From the NCBI GenBank assembly GCA_016649715.1, contig JAENXC010000003.1, forward strand, positions 124,001-188,000: a DNA stretch of 64,000 nucleotides, written 5' to 3'. Positions 5,876 through 59,485 of this stretch are shown one piece after another (within the stretch, counting starts at the first letter, position 1; each line of letters starts with the position of its first letter). The DNA comes from Flavobacteriaceae bacterium. Its GTDB lineage: Bacteria; Bacteroidota; Bacteroidia; Flavobacteriales; Flavobacteriaceae. A model generated the notes under the pieces. That model was given only the letters and a program-made list of their open reading frames with translations. It ran no database searches and was not told the DNA's origin. A program made the position numbers and the translations under genes.

Positions 5876-5914
5876 TCAACTCCTCAACTCCTCAACTTTT
5901 CAACTCCTCAACTA
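5876..5914 (-). repeat. Tandem AACTCCTC repeat abutting marC
   Basis: Four near-copies of CAACTCCT/CAACTTTT in a row. The 3' part (CCTCAACTAATT) contains the TAG stop of marC on the minus strand. No CRISPR-like spacers. Confidence 0.7.
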
Positions 5915-6493
5915 ATTAAACAATCCTTGAATATTTGAAGTGAAAAGCTTCACCGCAATAGCCAGCAAAATTACACCAAATATTTTTTGGATCACCGCAA
6001 TTCCATTCTTACCCAAAAACCGTTGCAATCTGCCTGAGGTCTTTAAGACCGCATAAATAATCACGATATTCACTATTATTGCCACAATAATATTTTCAAT
6101 GGAATACTCAGCTCGCAGTGAAAGTAAAGTTGTCAAGCTTCCCGGTCCTGCCAAAAGCGGAAACGCCAAGGGGAATATGGAAGCCAAATCTGGCGTAGTA
6201 TCTCCTTCTTTAAAAAGGGTAACGCCCAGTATCATTTCCAAAGCAATAAAGAAAAGTATTAAAGAACCCGCTACGGCAAATTCATTGACATTTACCCCAA
6301 TAAGATGCAGAATACTTTCGCCCAAAAAAAGAAAAACGATCATTACGACCGCCGCAATTATAGAAGCTTTTCCAGAATTGATGTGCCCAGCCTTTTCACG
6401 CAGACCAATAATAATAGGGATGCTCCCAATAATATCAATTACCGCAAAAAGCACCATGGTAGCAGTAGCTATTTCCTTAAAATTAAAATTCAT
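5912..6493 (-). CDS. MarC-family integral membrane protein
   Basis: 193 residues with six hydrophobic segments. FAVIDIIGSIPIIIGL near the N-terminus and FPLLAGPGSLTTLLSL in the second half are the hallmark MarC/NAAT repeats (the P-G-S turn in each half). The family was once linked to multiple antibiotic resistance, but its substrate is generally unclear. The last codons (Leu-Phe-Asn-stop) run into a tandem AACTCCTC repeat that supplies the stop codon, so the C-terminus may have been reset by the repeat. Confidence 0.92.
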   Translation of the reverse strand: MNFNFKEIATATMVLFAVIDIIGSIPIIIGLREKAGHINSGKASIIAAVVMIVFLFLGESILHLIGVNVNEFAVAGSLILFFIALEMILGVTLFKEGDTTPDLASIFPLAFPLLAGPGSLTTLLSLRAEYSIENIIVAIIVNIVIIYAVLKTSGRLQRFLGKNGIAVIQKIFGVILLAIAVKLFTSNIQGLFN

Positions 6494-10024: not shown

Positions 10025-11806
10025 ATGCGCAAACTTTGTTTCATTTTCTTCTTTTTTACGGTCGCGGCGAGCTTTTCGCAGAGTGATGCTTTGGCTAATA
10101 ATTATTTTGAACAAGGCCAATTTGAAAAGGCTTTGAGCATTTATGAAAAACTGAGCCAACAAAACCCCTATCGTCTCGATTATTTTATGAGTATGGTGGA
10201 AGCCAACCAACAGCTCGAAAATTTTTCGAAAGCGGAACAATTGCTGAAAGAAAAATTGGGCGACGGCAGAAGTTTTCCGCAACTATATGTGGAACTTGGT
10301 TATAATTATTCACTTCAAAGCAAAACGGAATTGGCTACCGAAAACTTCAATAAGGCTATTGAATCTATAAATTTAAATCTAAACTTTGCCTATAACATTG
10401 GCGCCACTTTTGAAAAATACAGTCTGCTTGATGAAGCGATTTCTACATACGAAAAAGCGATGCTGCTGAGCGACAAAATGGATTTCAACATGCAACTGGC
10501 GCAGATTTATGGCGAACAGGGAAAGTTTGAAAAGATGTTTGACAGTTACCTTAATCTTATTGAAAAAAATTTAAGTTTCAAAGGGGTTGCACAACGTTAT
10601 TTCAGTCTCTACACCACTGAAGATCCCACCAACGAAGCGAATTTGGTTCTTAAAAAAATACTCCTACAACGGTCGCAGCAAAATCCAAACATTCTTTATA
10701 ACGAATTGCTCAGCTGGTTGTTCATTCAGCAAAAAGAATACAAAAAAGCATTCACCCAGGAAAAAGCAATCTACAAACGCGTGGGCGAAGACCTCAGCGG
10801 CATTACCGATTTGGCTTATATCGCCATTGCCGATGATGATTATGAAAGCGGAAGGGAAATAGTAAATTACTTAATCGACAATTCCTTCACACCGCAAAAC
10901 AGGCTTCAGGGCAATCAAATTTTGATGAAAATGGAGGTGAAAACCGCCACTTCAAAACAATACCCCGAAGTAGAAAAAGAGTTTGAAAATTTGTTGGATG
11001 AATTTGGACGAAACCCTGGAACCTACCAATTGCAAATAGACTACAACCATTTTTTAGCTTTTCAGGAAAACAAAAAAGAACTCGCCATTGAAAATTTGAA
11101 AGCCTTGGCAAAAGAAAAACTAACTTCCTATCAAGAAGCGAGGGTGAAAATGGAACTCGCAGATATTTTGGTTTTTGACGAAAAATTCAACGAAGCATTA
11201 ATCTATTATTCCCAAATCCAGAAAAGAGTGCAGAGCGATGTGCTGGCACAGGAAGCCCGTTTTAAAGTGGCGCGCACAAGCTACTTTAAAGGCGATTTTG
11301 AATGGGCGCAAGTACAGCTCGATGTGCTAAAAAAATCCACTTCACAATTAATGGCGAATGATGCCATGCAACTCAGCCTTTTGATCCGCGACAATTCCTT
11401 GGAAGATTCTACACAAACAGCACTTAAAAAATATGCTCGCGCCGACCTGTTGGAATTTCAGGATAAAGATGCAGATGCCATTTCCGTTTTAGAAGATATT
11501 TTGACTAACAACAAAGGTGAAAAAATTGAAGACGAAGCCCTTCTTAAACAAGGCGAACTTTATGAAAAAACGGGACAATACACTAAAGCCGAAGCCAATT
11601 ACCTCAAAATAATCGAGTTTTACAACGACGATATTTTGGCCGATGACGCCCATTTTCGCTTAGCAAAACTTTACGAAGAAAAATTGGGTCAACCCGAAAA
11701 AGCAAAGAAACAGTACGAAGAGATTATTTTTCACTTTGCGGACAGCATTTATTTTGTGGAAGCACGGAAGAAGTATAGGGCTTTACGAGGGGATGCTATA
11801 AATTAA
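10025..11806 (+). CDS. Tetratricopeptide repeat protein, periplasmic
   Basis: 593 residues. The signal peptide ends AASFSQ. The rest is a helical solenoid of TPR-like units (ANNYFEQGQFEKALSIYEKL at 20-39, later QGELYEKTGQYTKAEANYLK and FRLAKLYEEKLGQPEKAKKQ near the C-terminus). No enzymatic motif is seen. TPR solenoids act as scaffolds in envelope complexes. A TATATTTA -7-like box lies just upstream of the ATG. A second TPR protein lies at 22.3 kb. Confidence 0.85.
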   Translation: MRKLCFIFFFFTVAASFSQSDALANNYFEQGQFEKALSIYEKLSQQNPYRLDYFMSMVEANQQLENFSKAEQLLKEKLGDGRSFPQLYVELGYNYSLQSKTELATENFNKAIESINLNLNFAYNIGATFEKYSLLDEAISTYEKAMLLSDKMDFNMQLAQIYGEQGKFEKMFDSYLNLIEKNLSFKGVAQRYFSLYTTEDPTNEANLVLKKILLQRSQQNPNILYNELLSWLFIQQKEYKKAFTQEKAIYKRVGEDLSGITDLAYIAIADDDYESGREIVNYLIDNSFTPQNRLQGNQILMKMEVKTATSKQYPEVEKEFENLLDEFGRNPGTYQLQIDYNHFLAFQENKKELAIENLKALAKEKLTSYQEARVKMELADILVFDEKFNEALIYYSQIQKRVQSDVLAQEARFKVARTSYFKGDFEWAQVQLDVLKKSTSQLMANDAMQLSLLIRDNSLEDSTQTALKKYARADLLEFQDKDADAISVLEDILTNNKGEKIEDEALLKQGELYEKTGQYTKAEANYLKIIEFYNDDILADDAHFRLAKLYEEKLGQPEKAKKQYEEIIFHFADSIYFVEARKKYRALRGDAIN

Positions 11807-11811
11807 AAAAG

Positions 11812-11945
11812 CACCAAACTGAAAAGCACCAAAATTCAAATTCCAAATTCCAAAACCGCAGATGGAATATTCTTAAAATGCCTTTGGAATTTGAATTTTG
11901 GCCTTTATTTGGAATTTGGTGCTTAAAATTTTGGAATTTTAAAAT
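11812..11945 (+). repeat. AT-rich inverted repeat (GGAATTTGG family)
   Basis: Left arm GCACCAAAATTCAAATTCC and right arm containing GGAATTTGGTGC, with further AAATTCC / GGAATTT copies between them. It can form a long imperfect hairpin and fills the 140-bp gap between the TPR and DUF4286 genes. It shares a 17-mer with the repeat at about 6,607. Confidence 0.75.
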
Positions 11946-11946
11946 T

Positions 11947-12279
11947 ATGTACATCTACAACGTAACCATAAACATAGAAGAAACCATTCACGACCGCTGG
12001 CTGCATTGGATGAAGTCTGAACACATTCCCGCAATGCTCGCAACTGGAAAATTCAGAAAAGCATTACTGACGCGTGTAATTGTTGAGGAAGAAATGGGCG
12101 GCATTACATATTCCGTACAATACACAACTGACAGCAAAGAAACCCTTCAAAAATACTATTCCGAAAACGCTGCCGAACTCCGCGCCCAGAGCAAACCTTT
12201 TGAAGGAAAATTTGTAGCATTCCGCACCGAACTTGAAATAATTGGAGAAGCCCATAACGAACTTTTCCAAAAACAGTAA
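11947..12279 (+). CDS. DUF4286 family protein
   Basis: 110 residues from the ATG at 11947 (MYIYNVTINI); the frame upstream is repeat sequence. The form is a small ferredoxin-like alpha/beta domain (HDRWLHWMKSEHIPAM, GGITYSVQY, ALLTRVIVEEEMGG). DUF4286 proteins are common in Bacteroidetes and typically sit next to rsmA, as here. Function is unknown. It is separated from rsmA by a CTCTGTG inverted repeat. Confidence 0.88.
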   Translation: MYIYNVTINIEETIHDRWLHWMKSEHIPAMLATGKFRKALLTRVIVEEEMGGITYSVQYTTDSKETLQKYYSENAAELRAQSKPFEGKFVAFRTELEIIGEAHNELFQKQ

Positions 12280-43314: not shown

Positions 43315-44013
43315 ATGATAAAAAAGACAGTTGCAAACGTTCGCGAAGCCTGTGATGGCATTGCAGACGGAATGACCTTTATGCTAGGCGGCTTTGGGCT
43401 TTGTGGCATTCCAGAAAATATTATTTCAGAATTGGTTCGGAGAAATATCCAAAACGTTACCTGTATTTCAAACAACGCGGGCGTCGATGATTTTGGGCTT
43501 GGCCTGTTGTTGAAAAAGCATCAAATAAAGAAAATGATTTCCTCTTATGTAGGCGAAAACGCCGAGTTTGAGAGGCAAATGCTAAGCGGCGAAATGGAGG
43601 TTGAACTGGTTCCTCAGGGAACATTGGCGCAACGTTGTGAATCCGCCCGAAGTGGGATTCCAGCCTTTTTCACCCCAGCTGGTTACGGAACCGAAGTTGC
43701 CGAAGGAAAAGAAACCCGAGAATTCCACGGAAAAATGTACGTAATGGAAAAAGCCTTTGAAGCAGATTTCTCCTTCGTAAAAGCTTGGAAAGGAGACGAA
43801 GCCGGAAACCTCATCTTTAAGGGAACAGCACGAAATTTCAACCCAGCTATGTGCGGTGCCGGAAAAATTACCGTCGCGGAAGTTGAAGAACTTGTTCCCG
43901 CTGGGAAATTGGATCCGAACCAAATTCATATTCCGGGAATTTTTATCCAAAGGATTTTTCAAGGAGAAAAATATGAAAAGCGCATTGAGCAGTTAACTGT
44001 TAGAAAAAAATGA
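43315..44013 (+). CDS. scoA: 3-oxoacid CoA-transferase subunit A
   Basis: 232 residues. [19 protein letters not shown] and [18 protein letters not shown] are typical of the alpha subunit of succinyl-CoA:3-ketoacid CoA-transferase; [22 protein letters not shown] is also conserved. With scoB it moves CoA between succinyl-CoA and acetoacetate. The TGA stop (44011-44013) is the first three bases of an AT-rich inverted repeat, and a four-helix-bundle gene now separates it from scoB. Confidence 0.94.
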
Positions 44014-44047
44014 TTTGAAAATATGTGGATTTGAAAATTTGATAATG
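44011..44047 (+). repeat. Left inverted repeat flanking the four-helix-bundle gene
   Basis: TGATTTGAAAATATGTGGAT then TTGAAAATTTGATAATG: two direct GATTTGAAAAT units, with a counterpart in opposite orientation at 44469-44510. It begins with the scoA stop codon. Confidence 0.7.
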
Positions 44048-44070
44048 CAGAATTGCTAATACTTTAAATT

Positions 44071-44427
44071 ATGAGAAATGATAAAGACAATTTAATTGTG
44101 GATAAAACCTTTGCTTTCACATTGGAAATTATTGACTATACCGAGGAATTACGGAAATTACATAAATATGAAATGGCTTCCCAACTATTCAAAAGTGGGA
44201 CCTCCGTTGAGGCAAACACGAAAGAAGCACAAAATGCTGAAAGCCCTGCCGACTTCATTCACAAATTTAAAATAGCGGCCAAAGAAGCAGATGAAACCGA
44301 ATTTTGGTTGAAACTATGTGTTGCTTCCAAACATTATCCAAACCCTTCGGAATTAATGCTATCAGAATTAGGGTCAATCATAAAAATTATTTCAAAAATC
44401 ATTAGTTCAAGCAAAAATAAATCTTGA
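44071..44427 (+). CDS. Four-helix-bundle protein (23S rRNA IVP family)
   Basis: 118 residues, all alpha. FAFTLEIIDYTEELRKLHKY, YEMASQLFKSGTSVEANTKE, FIHKFKIAAKEADETEFWLK and LIIKISKIISS-like helices match the TIGR02436 / S23 'intervening sequence protein' family (SGTSV.AN..EA and A.KE..ET.FWL are the hallmarks). Known members lie in 23S rRNA IVS insertions or as accessory (Avd) proteins of diversity-generating retroelements. Here it is between scoA and scoB, bounded by inverted repeats, with no reverse transcriptase nearby. Confidence 0.88.
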   Translation: MRNDKDNLIVDKTFAFTLEIIDYTEELRKLHKYEMASQLFKSGTSVEANTKEAQNAESPADFIHKFKIAAKEADETEFWLKLCVASKHYPNPSELMLSELGSIIKIISKIISSSKNKS

Positions 44428-44468
44428 CAAAACCATTACTCATAGACAAAATTTTTAACGTAAAACTT

Positions 44469-44510
44469 CCATTTTCAAATCATAAAATTACCAAATTTTC
44501 AAATTAAATT
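44469..44510 (-). repeat. Right inverted repeat flanking the four-helix-bundle gene
   Basis: CATTTTCAAATCATAAAATT then ACCAAATTTTCAAATTAAATT. Read on the minus strand it gives AATTTGAAAATTTGGTAATT and ATGATTTGAAAATG, matching the left repeat. It ends at the scoB start codon. Confidence 0.7.
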
Positions 44511-45167
44511 ATGGCACTTTCAAAAGAACAAATAGCACAACGCATTGCAAAAGAAGTAAAAGACGGCTACTACGTTAACTTGGGTATCGGAATTCCAACC
44601 TTGGTCGCCAACTTTGTGAACCATGATATAAATGTAGAATTCCAAAGTGAAAACGGAATTCTCGGGATGGGTCCTTTTCCATTTGAAGGCGAAGCAGATC
44701 CAGATTTAATTAATGCAGGAAAGCAAACAATCACCGCTTTGCCCGGCGCATCCTTCTTTGACTCGGCGATGAGTTTTGGGATGATTCGAGGGCAACACGT
44801 TGATTTAACTATACTCGGGGCGATGGAAGTTTCACAAAATGGCGACATAGCCAACTGGAAAATCCCTGGAAAAATGGTAAAAGGAATGGGTGGCGCCATG
44901 GACTTGGTTGCTTCCGCAGAAAATATAATTGTAGCGATGATGCACACGAACCGAGAAGGCGAATCCAAGCTTTTAAAAGAATGTAGCTTGCCTTTAACTG
45001 GAGTAAAATGCGTTAAAAAAATTGTAACCAACCTTGCAGTTCTCGAAATTATTGATGGAAAATTTCATCTTCTCGAGCGGGCCCCGGGAGTTTCAGTTGA
45101 AGAAATTCAAAAAGCTACCGAGGGAGATTTGGTTGTAATTGGAGACATTATGGAGATGAAATTTTAA
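44511..45167 (+). CDS. scoB: 3-oxoacid CoA-transferase subunit B
   Basis: 218 residues. The catalytic Glu lies in QSENGILGMGP (about 45), with GYYVNLGIGIPTLV at the N-terminus and GQHVDLTILGAMEVSQNGDI typical of beta subunits. It completes the CoA-transferase with scoA. The ATG directly abuts the right inverted repeat. A hairpin terminator follows. Confidence 0.95.
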   Translation: MALSKEQIAQRIAKEVKDGYYVNLGIGIPTLVANFVNHDINVEFQSENGILGMGPFPFEGEADPDLINAGKQTITALPGASFFDSAMSFGMIRGQHVDLTILGAMEVSQNGDIANWKIPGKMVKGMGGAMDLVASAENIIVAMMHTNREGESKLLKECSLPLTGVKCVKKIVTNLAVLEIIDGKFHLLERAPGVSVEEIQKATEGDLVVIGDIMEMKF

Positions 45168-58813: not shown

Positions 58814-59485
58814 TTACTTTTTCAATATTTTCACCGCTTTAGCAATTACACTTTCTACGGTTGTGGCGTTTGAAATTACTACGTTTTCTGTATATTTTTT
58901 CGCTTCTTGAGCGGTTGTGGTTCCTATGCAAACTGCTTTCGTCATTCCCGCGAAGGCTGGAATATTATTGTTATTTGTATTTCCTTCAACAAAACTTCGT
59001 ACCCCACTTGGGCTGAAAAACAAAACTGCATCAAAATTTCTCTCAAATTTTTTTGGATTCAAAGTTGTTTTGTAAACTTCAATTTCTTCAAAAGCTATAT
59101 TGTTTTCTTTCAATATTGAAGGAATTTCATCGCTTCTAATATTTCCACAGAAAAAGTGAAAGGAATCGTTTTTGTGATTTTTCACTAAATAGTCAGCCAA
59201 TTCAGAAGCATATTCGGTCATTTTAATCACTTTTTGGCCGTTTTCTTCCAAAAGTGATTTTGTCTTTTCACCAACGCAAAAGCAACTCATAACTCCTAAC
59301 TCATAACTCATAACTGCCTTCACAGCATTTTGGCTTGTAAAAATTGCATTTCCAATATTTGAAGGAACTTCAAAAGAAACGAATTCAATTTTTATGGCGT
59401 TGTATTCCACTAGCGAAATACTCGCATTCAACAGTAACGATCTTTGATTTTCAGATAATTTTTTAGTTGATAGAACCGCCAACAT
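58814..59485 (-). CDS. hemD: Uroporphyrinogen-III synthase with two repeat insertions
   Basis: 223 residues. Family features are weak as usual: VLSTKKLSENQRSLLLNAS at the N-terminus, FTSQNAVKAV (about 45-55), CFCVGEKTKSLLEENG, LFFSPSGVRSFVEG and AVCIGTTTAQEAKKY. It cyclises hydroxymethylbilane to uroporphyrinogen III. Two low-homology peptides, MSYELGVMS (about 57-67) and IPAFAGMT (about 173-181), are encoded by short repeats (59284-59315 and 58940-58966). The start overlaps trkA by 23 bases, so translation is coupled to it. Confidence 0.9.
   Translation of the reverse strand: MLAVLSTKKLSENQRSLLLNASISLVEYNAIKIEFVSFEVPSNIGNAIFTSQNAVKAVMSYELGVMSCFCVGEKTKSLLEENGQKVIKMTEYASELADYLVKNHKNDSFHFFCGNIRSDEIPSILKENNIAFEEIEVYKTTLNPKKFERNFDAVLFFSPSGVRSFVEGNTNNNNIPAFAGMTKAVCIGTTTAQEAKKYTENVVISNATTVESVIAKAVKILKK
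58940..58966 (-). repeat. TCATTCCCGCGAAGGCTGGAAT repeat inside hemD
   Basis: The widespread ATTCC-x-GC-GAAGGC-GGAAT palindrome, read in frame on the minus strand as NIPAFAGMT. Confidence 0.85.
59284..59315 (-). repeat. ACTCATAACTCCTAACTCAT tandem repeat inside hemD
   Basis: Four ACTCATAACT/ACTCCTAACT near-copies, read in frame on the minus strand as VMSYELGVMSC. Confidence 0.85.

Follow-up and report, generated by a model that had tools for sequence, protein, structure and literature searches.

The closest described relatives of the locus reported here are the intervening sequences (IVSs) of 23S rRNA genes. The Coxiella IVS holds an S23p open reading frame (ORF), has a 28-bp terminal stem and contains heptameric repeats; tandem copies of the heptamer GACAGAT, variable in number, precede the ORF, and RNase III cleaves the element in vitro (PMC4990558). 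A Xanthomonas protein of the same IVP family is described as a homopentamer, and in the available part of this account the IVP/S23p proteins are described as having no known function (PMC4990558). Short tandem repeats of comparable unit length have been studied in their own right. In Xanthomonas, arrays of GGGAATC lie mainly in intergenic regions near stop codons, with four units preferred, and form convergent pairs (70 cases in Xcc and 75 in Xac), and in Nostoc the GGGGA(T/C)T heptamers form few inverted pairs (PMC4692102). As far as the available part of that study goes, both kinds of repeat are treated as quadruplex-forming and as generally not associated with mobile elements (PMC4692102). 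In the open-licence literature, no paper was found that recognisably describes operon junctions holding IVP genes between matched arrays.

The window (the whole stretch of DNA that was analysed, 64,000 nucleotides from a member of the Flavobacteriaceae) contains such a junction. The first-pass annotation had claimed that scoA and scoB are separated by an IVP-family gene of 118 residues, and the coordinates together with matches to TIGR02429, TIGR02428 and PF05635 bear this out (Table 1). The two host genes lie 497 nt apart with only this ORF inside, and the location of the unit is between them and not inside a 23S rRNA gene. The scoA stop codon occupies 44011-44013. The 5' arm begins immediately after it, and the 3' arm, which reads TTTGAAAA TTTGGTAA TTTTATGA TTTGAAAA inward on the minus strand (44503-44472), stops 7 nt short of the scoB ATG. 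The repeats had also been described as opposite in orientation and as touching both the scoA stop and the scoB start; their orientation and the contact with scoA stand, but the contact with scoB does not. Complementary terminal sequences flank the IVP ORF as in the definition of a 23S rRNA IVS, the inverted arms being delimited by a repeat finder at 44013-44047 and 44470-44504 (35 nt each, 77% complementary). The division of both arms into octamers is our own parsing, re-checked against the sequence, and it agrees with identity peaks at lags 8 and 16 (0.460 and 0.470) at the ends of 13 scoA|scoB inserts collected family-wide. We regard the sco segment as probably a small mobile element of the intervening kind, in which two convergent arrays of about four 7-8-nt units enclose a sense-oriented IVP gene.

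Table 1. Features of the scoA|scoB junction and of a gene-less palindrome elsewhere in the window
Feature	Position	Strand	Basis
scoA, 3-oxoacid CoA-transferase subunit A, upstream host gene	43315..44013	+	TIGR02429, 255 bits
5' arm, four octamers TTTGAAAA TATGTGGA TTTGAAAA TTTGATAA	44014..44045	+	sequence, repeat finder
IVP-family four-helix-bundle protein gene, 118 aa, sole gene of the unit	44071..44427	+	PF05635 5.9e-19, TIGR02436 1.9e-24
3' arm, four octamers, inverted relative to the 5' arm	44472..44503	-	sequence, repeat finder
scoB, 3-oxoacid CoA-transferase subunit B, downstream host gene	44511..45167	+	TIGR02428, 331 bits
Gene-less palindrome of CCAAATTC-type octamers	11807..11943		match to the flanks on either side of IVP copy L014, a locus of this genome

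The repeats had initially been named by their sequence. ATTTGAAAAT occurs five times in the window, four of them at the sco unit, against 2.25 expected in all; because five of 100 shuffles reach the same count, the motif by itself is weak evidence. The inverted repeats are real, and what they consist of are tandem arrays of 7-8-nt units. The double motif GATTTGAAAAT is found once in the window and in 0 of 100 shuffles. Across the whole genome it occurs once at two mismatches or fewer, and the backwards-read control pattern five times.

In profile searches the 118-residue ORF scored 68.7 bits against PF05635 (cut-off 33.8) and 86 bits against TIGR02436 (cut-off 24). PF05635 was its only Pfam match; no transposase, nuclease or reverse transcriptase domain was detected in it. 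The sco protein matches PDB entry 2rld (3.7e-20) and the family alignment matches 2gsc (2.9e-36), and both of these solved relatives were deposited with five chains. Matches to cholera/enterotoxin-type B chains in PDB (E 0.017-0.43) were taken as chance. PF05635 resembles Avd (PMC10053308), which raises the reading that the unit is part of an Avd-like diversity-generating retroelement moved by a reverse transcriptase. This is scarcely credible here: no match to PF00078 (reverse transcriptase) was obtained in the genome studied or, in all, in 19 of the 28 genomes of its genus (apparently Aequorivita), while every one of the 28 carries 5-21 IVP genes among the matches listed, and the three genes next to the unit encode a penicillin-binding protein, an ABC transporter and a metalloprotease. 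No match to a Y1 transposase was found in nine of the 28 genus genomes, all of them IVP-bearing. Since IVP-bearing genomes exist in which one or the other was not found, residence of the units requires neither enzyme, and its dependence on either is not supported; past movement of the units may have used a reverse transcriptase or a Y1 transposase.

Comparison of coding sequences indicates that the IVP protein is under purifying selection. At the sco junction, the IVP genes of genomes G000 and G012 differ by a dN of 0.098 at a saturated dS of 2.06, and scoA of the same pair gives a dN of 0.020 and a dS of 1.29. The IVP ORFs at sufC|sufD have a median dN/dS of 0.056 (eight usable pairs from six ORFs, one short), and the one pair at paaC|paaD gives 0.082; the script pattern used recovered the ORF in only six of nine and four of seven IVP inserts at these two sites. 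Some copies are broken, in that several places in the genus listing carry stops, including an internal stop in the suf-site copy of G012. Selection of this kind suggests that the protein is probably functional.

The genome studied holds 12 IVP genes. A search for the same flanking repeats at the other copies had been proposed; the literal sco repeat is not common to the 11 other copies, but the architecture is, with short units that differ from copy to copy and face each other as mirror images across the gene. One of these copies (L007) has an arm score of only 10. For the genus, 101 loci were gathered among the matches listed (12 from this genome, 29 delivered and 60 fetched), a sample that favours high-scoring IVPs. 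An arm match of at least 12 within the copy was found at 85 of the 98 loci scored (L057 and L061, where the gene was not located, and L116, with a short flank, were left out), and a score under 12 at the other 13. Mismatched arm pairs reach this level in 6.1% of cases, and arms compared in direct orientation do so at 25 of 98 loci. The arms at these loci are tandem arrays of 7-8-nt units. Identity at lag 7 is 0.404/0.393 in the flanks as against 0.253/0.262 in controls 700 bp away (96 loci, three of 99 having been dropped), and a clear lag-7 array was seen in 76 of 192 arms and in 4 of 192 controls, with a median of 4.6 units and with four or five units in 50 of the 76. The remaining 116 arms are without a clear lag-7 array, and the octamer arms fall among these. 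Read inward, the arms are C-poor and G-rich, G exceeding C in 71 of the 85 copies with a clear arm match. Chance repeats were rejected as the source of the arms on the double-motif shuffles, the arm match within copies and the lag-7 periodicity relative to controls. Copies of one transposon with fixed ends were also rejected, given the single occurrence of the GATTTGAAAAT double motif in this genome and the differing units of copies within this genome.

The same build is found outside the genus. The best 80 of 584 loci from a bacterial genome scan come mostly from Bacteroidota, and also cover Cloacimonadota, Patescibacteria, Geobacter, Clostridia, Luteimonas and others. Within these best 80 of 584, arms are matched at 55 of the 78 loci scored (L216 and L244 were dropped), or at 54 of 77 once one Aequorivita locus is removed, compared with 4.1% for mismatched pairs and 20 of 78 in direct orientation. 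Lag-7 identity in this same best 80 of 584 is 0.395/0.396 against 0.257 in controls, and a clear lag-7 array is present in 56 of 144 arms (control 5 of 144; median 4.5 units). Further copies in four of the outside genomes have matched arms at 21 of 27 located loci (L318 of 28 was dropped), where four of the 21 repeat loci scored earlier and two of the six misses (L325 and L327) are one and the same gene. In Luteimonas the IVP gene is flanked by the unit GGGAATC, and its neighbours, named from their protein ends, are presumably accB- and accC-like genes.

For comparison, a second kind of locus was analysed, centred on the GxxExxY gene (TIGR04256), which is present in 26 of the 28 genus genomes. 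At the loci L273-L302 a single small gene is enclosed by arrays of CACAGAGG-type units in inverted orientation, and the periodicity of these arrays peaks at lags 9 and 2. The arm match is at least 12 in 20 of the 25 loci scored (L292, L293, L296, L297 and L298 of the 30 were left out as interrupted or truncated); mismatched pairs also score high, with a mean of 11.2, because the loci share units.

Among IVP loci, the sharing of units was compared with the identity of the proteins. For loci at different junctions, the arm on one side was set against the arm on the other side, which keeps shared flanks from contributing to a match. At different sites, units are shared by six of seven pairs with at least 75% protein identity, by 34 of 61 pairs at 65-75% and by 7 of 77 at 55-65%. 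In the two lowest classes, 45-55% and below 45%, the counts are 3 of 317 and 7 of 4094. Pairs at least 65% identical at different sites have units in common in 40 of 68 cases, whereas none of the 59 same-junction pairs below 65% identity shares them. These locus pairs are not independent of one another; a Mantel test over 39 sites gave r = 0.164, a value reached by one of 5000 permutations. An exception is the pair L058/L059, which sits at different sites and has different units at about 72-73% protein identity. Because close IVPs at different sites share units and distant ones at the same site do not, the unit sequence of the arms follows the IVP subfamily and not the insertion site. The simplest reason for this link would be that IVP most likely recognises its own arm units; co-inheritance of a compact unit is a weaker alternative reason.

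Variation at the host junctions was surveyed in relatives. An empty scoA|scoB junction, which the first-pass annotation had proposed to seek, was found in 19 of the 28 genus genomes, where the genes overlap at TAATG; two genomes (G000 and G012) hold an IVP gene, and seven hold shorter inserts of 86-150 nt. Four of the shorter inserts (G022, G004, G024 and G005) match GxxExxY arms, with best scores of 56.5, 60.0, 46.0 and 74.5 against shuffled maxima of 24.5, 26.0, 30.0 and 26.0. Across the family, 110 of 123 matching genomes were examined: 57 junctions are empty (gap of at most 30 nt), 12 hold an IVP gene (this genome included), one holds an IVP fragment, 34 have gaps of 31-260 nt of mixed kinds and six have other long inserts. 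By eye, the inserts of G032 and G091 resemble broken IVPs. The earlier concern that all relatives might carry the same gene at this place is not realised, with IVP at 2 of 28 junctions in the genus and 12 of 110 in the family. The sco unit has the inverted ends and the empty sites in relatives by which insertion sequences and MITEs are defined. The empty alleles differ among themselves at the scoA end; an insertion breakpoint is not placeable on them and a target-site duplication is not definable.

The 13 scoA|scoB IVPs (the 12 and that of G012) all fall within one 20-row clade of a 191-row tree. This clustering needs two changes, compared with a shuffled mean of 12.7 (0 of 500 shuffles). In the same tree the protein of the A. 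aurantiaca locus L270 is identical to that of L100. The distances among these 13 IVPs show no significant correlation with those of scoB (r = 0.155, 822 of 5000, n = 13), and simple vertical descent at this junction finds no support in this weak correlation among 13 loci. Given that these IVPs form one clade and that their distances do not track scoB, the site has been re-used by one IVP subfamily, through descent with losses, re-insertion or exchange. In the genus tree, whose resolution is poor, with stars on 10 of its 25 inner branches, G012 is nested with starred support among genomes with empty junctions. Related IVPs in 12 of the 110 family genomes, and the purifying selection on the protein, could also be accommodated if IVP had long belonged to the operon and acted there in regulation or assembly, its arrays serving as control sites and its patchiness reflecting loss. 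Such a host gene is distinctly unlikely, as matched arms recur at unrelated junctions, gene-less palindromes exist and only 2 of 28 genus genomes have an IVP at this junction.

Two further junctions were followed through the genus. At paaC|paaD, the 27 readable genomes (G017 was left out because of a contig end) comprise seven with an IVP gene, eight with gene-less heptamer palindromes and 12 others; these labels were given by eye, and the paaD start is misassigned behind IVP inserts. Intergenic repeats of the TTCCCGCG..CGGGAA- and CCCTGAGCGCAGTCGAAGGG-types are present at this junction in G002, G014, G020, G019, G012, G025 and G016, where IVP units are absent. Beside paa genes, four loci (L055, L058, L099 and L102) have a second IVP match about 300-400 nt past the first, giving two IVP units in one operon. 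At sufC|sufD, an insert of about 460-490 nt is present in nine of 28 genomes, and one 209-nt remnant retains its arms; the downstream start was misassigned in many genomes at first pass, and 14 of the 28 gaps were redone. The close genomes G007 and G015, with terminal branches of 0.012 and 0.0014, differ at this junction (31 versus 482 nt). A difference of this kind fits a cassette at the DNA level, for which a host or phage enzyme would act on the array ends, or homologous recombination in the flanking genes would swap units, and in which the sense bias of the IVP genes would reflect their need for a host promoter. The nested position of G012 and the lack of a significant correlation between IVP and scoB distances fit such a cassette as well; however, no transposase is linked to the unit and Y1 was not found in the nine IVP-bearing genomes named above, which leaves this reading possible but doubtful.

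REPIN/RAYT and MITE-type systems comprise gene-less palindromic derivatives beside a gene-bearing form. A palindrome of this description in the window (Table 1) lies directly after the stop of the ORF 10025-11806; the next mechanical ORF starts inside it at 11878, and an in-frame ATG stands beyond it at 11947. Its summed alignment score with the flanks of IVP copy L014 is 67.5, that with the next IVP locus 42.0, and the shuffled maxima for the two flanks are 16.5 and 17.5. Solo arrays are present too. A solo octamer array of CAACTCCT at 5876-5913 meets the stop end of the minus-strand ORF 5912-6493, and the same unit is common to the flanks of four congener IVP copies (L093, L066, L063 and L104). 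A solo heptamer array, AACTCAT, lies at 59284-59315 within the minus-strand ORF 58814-59485 (223 aa).

IVP genes are sense to both neighbours at 84 of the 87 genus loci with two confident neighbours (of 99 loci, three without both neighbours and nine with a neighbour of less than 100 aa were left out). Counted as one locus per site, 37 of the 40 distinct genus sites have both neighbours, and 33 of these are sense to both and one is antisense to a co-directional pair. In the outside set, the IVP gene is sense in 60 of the 62 cases whose neighbours are co-directional and lie within 300 bp (best 80 of 584, five of the 80 dropped). Antisense orientation to both neighbours was found for three IVP genes only, L049, L219 and L224. 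The sense bias is not specific to IVP, since GxxExxY genes show one too: 18 of 23 loci are sense to both neighbours and none is antisense to a co-directional pair (seven of 30 were left out). Junctions within the genes of one complex that carry an IVP gene are scoA|scoB, paaC|paaD, sufC|sufD, nqrD|nqrE and sdhA|sdhB. In a phage region of Flavobacterium columnare, a four helix bundle gene lies between those for guanylate kinase and a nucleotidyltransferase (PMC5524665), and this site may be another such junction.

Sense orientation and placement between a stop and a start are also what an mRNA intervening sequence would have: the arms would pair in the operon transcript, RNase III would cut the stem and the IVP message would be removed, as in 23S rRNA IVSs, for which the Coxiella element offers a precedent. 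The two sco arms do pair in the minimum-energy RNA fold of the segment; however, this fold is not more stable than those of shuffled sequences (z = 0.10) and many arms are imperfect. Arm mismatches that keep G.U pairing on the sense RNA are not in excess either, with 63 versus 78 in the genus and 54 versus 90, in the reverse direction (p = 0.003), outside it (best 80 of 584). Selection for a sense-RNA hairpin is not supported by this count, and removal from the messenger in this manner seems on balance unlikely. Over 85 genus loci and 56 others, the arm mismatches are skewed to A on the 5' arm opposite G on the 3' arm when the latter is read inward, significantly so in the second set.

For the small mobile intervening element that we favour, sequence comparison shows the architecture, its generality, the link between unit and subfamily, the empty and gene-less alleles, the sense orientation and the purifying selection. 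The initial claim that the segment is a mobile unit, about 500 bp long and with the gene of the four-helix-bundle protein as its sole gene, fits the empty and filled junctions, units shared across sites and gene-less relatives. In the proposed mechanism, IVP would recognise the units of its own arms, and protein and arms would have to change together. Arms and protein together could bring the two ends of the unit into contact and carry it to new junctions, and insertion between a stop and a start would let the host operon tolerate it. Speculatively, four to five units per arm would fit a five-chain IVP ring. Excision of the unit at the RNA level may also occur. The element would be like a 23S rRNA IVS whose home is in operon messages. 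A broader picture is put forward more tentatively, as one we lean slightly against. Bacterial operon junctions might be colonised by a large class of tiny elements, each made of a small protein and an array of short units that evolve together as partners (a protein-to-repeat code), each IVP subfamily reading its own 7-8-mer and GxxExxY proteins reading 9-mers. The heptamer repeats of Xanthomonas, and perhaps those of Nostoc, would be special cases, as would 23S rRNA IVSs, and gene-less palindromes would be non-autonomous dependants.

These data point to repeat-flanked IVP units at gene junctions as a widespread, little-described kind of tiny mobile element. If this is true, it suggests concretely what IVP/S23p proteins could do outside rRNA, namely act as partners of their own repeat arrays, and it gives a source to short tandem repeats so far studied as free-standing. 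Junctions between the subunit genes of one complex could then be landing sites, with a possible effect on subunit balance, and the proposed protein-repeat code opens a direct binding test.

Set against known systems, the sco unit is most like the Coxiella 23S rRNA IVS, which has one IVP-family ORF, a similar size and complementary ends and lies within a host RNA (PMC4990558). Unlike that element, as far as its available description goes, the units reported here have a protein-coding operon junction as host, many copies per genome, copy-specific units and arrays on both sides. The Xanthomonas GGGAATC repeats share convergent heptamer arrays near stop codons, and the flanks of the Luteimonas IVP use the very same unit, but the Xanthomonas and Nostoc repeats are described, in the available part of the source, without an IVP gene (PMC4692102). 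The Avd protein of diversity-generating retroelements is related to IVP (PMC10053308), whereas no reverse transcriptase is linked to the sco unit, as judged from this genome and the three nearest genes. GxxExxY loci form a parallel element class in which one small gene also lies within inverted short-unit arrays, but with another protein family and CACAGAGG-type units. Gene-less palindromes alongside a gene-bearing unit recall REPIN/RAYT and MITE palindromes; in contrast to REPIN/RAYT, the sco unit has no Y1 transposase (its ORF matches PF05635 only), its arms are tandem arrays and its units vary between copies. The sco segment is thus probably an IVS-like mobile unit that resides at an operon junction and whose IVP probably recognises its own array.
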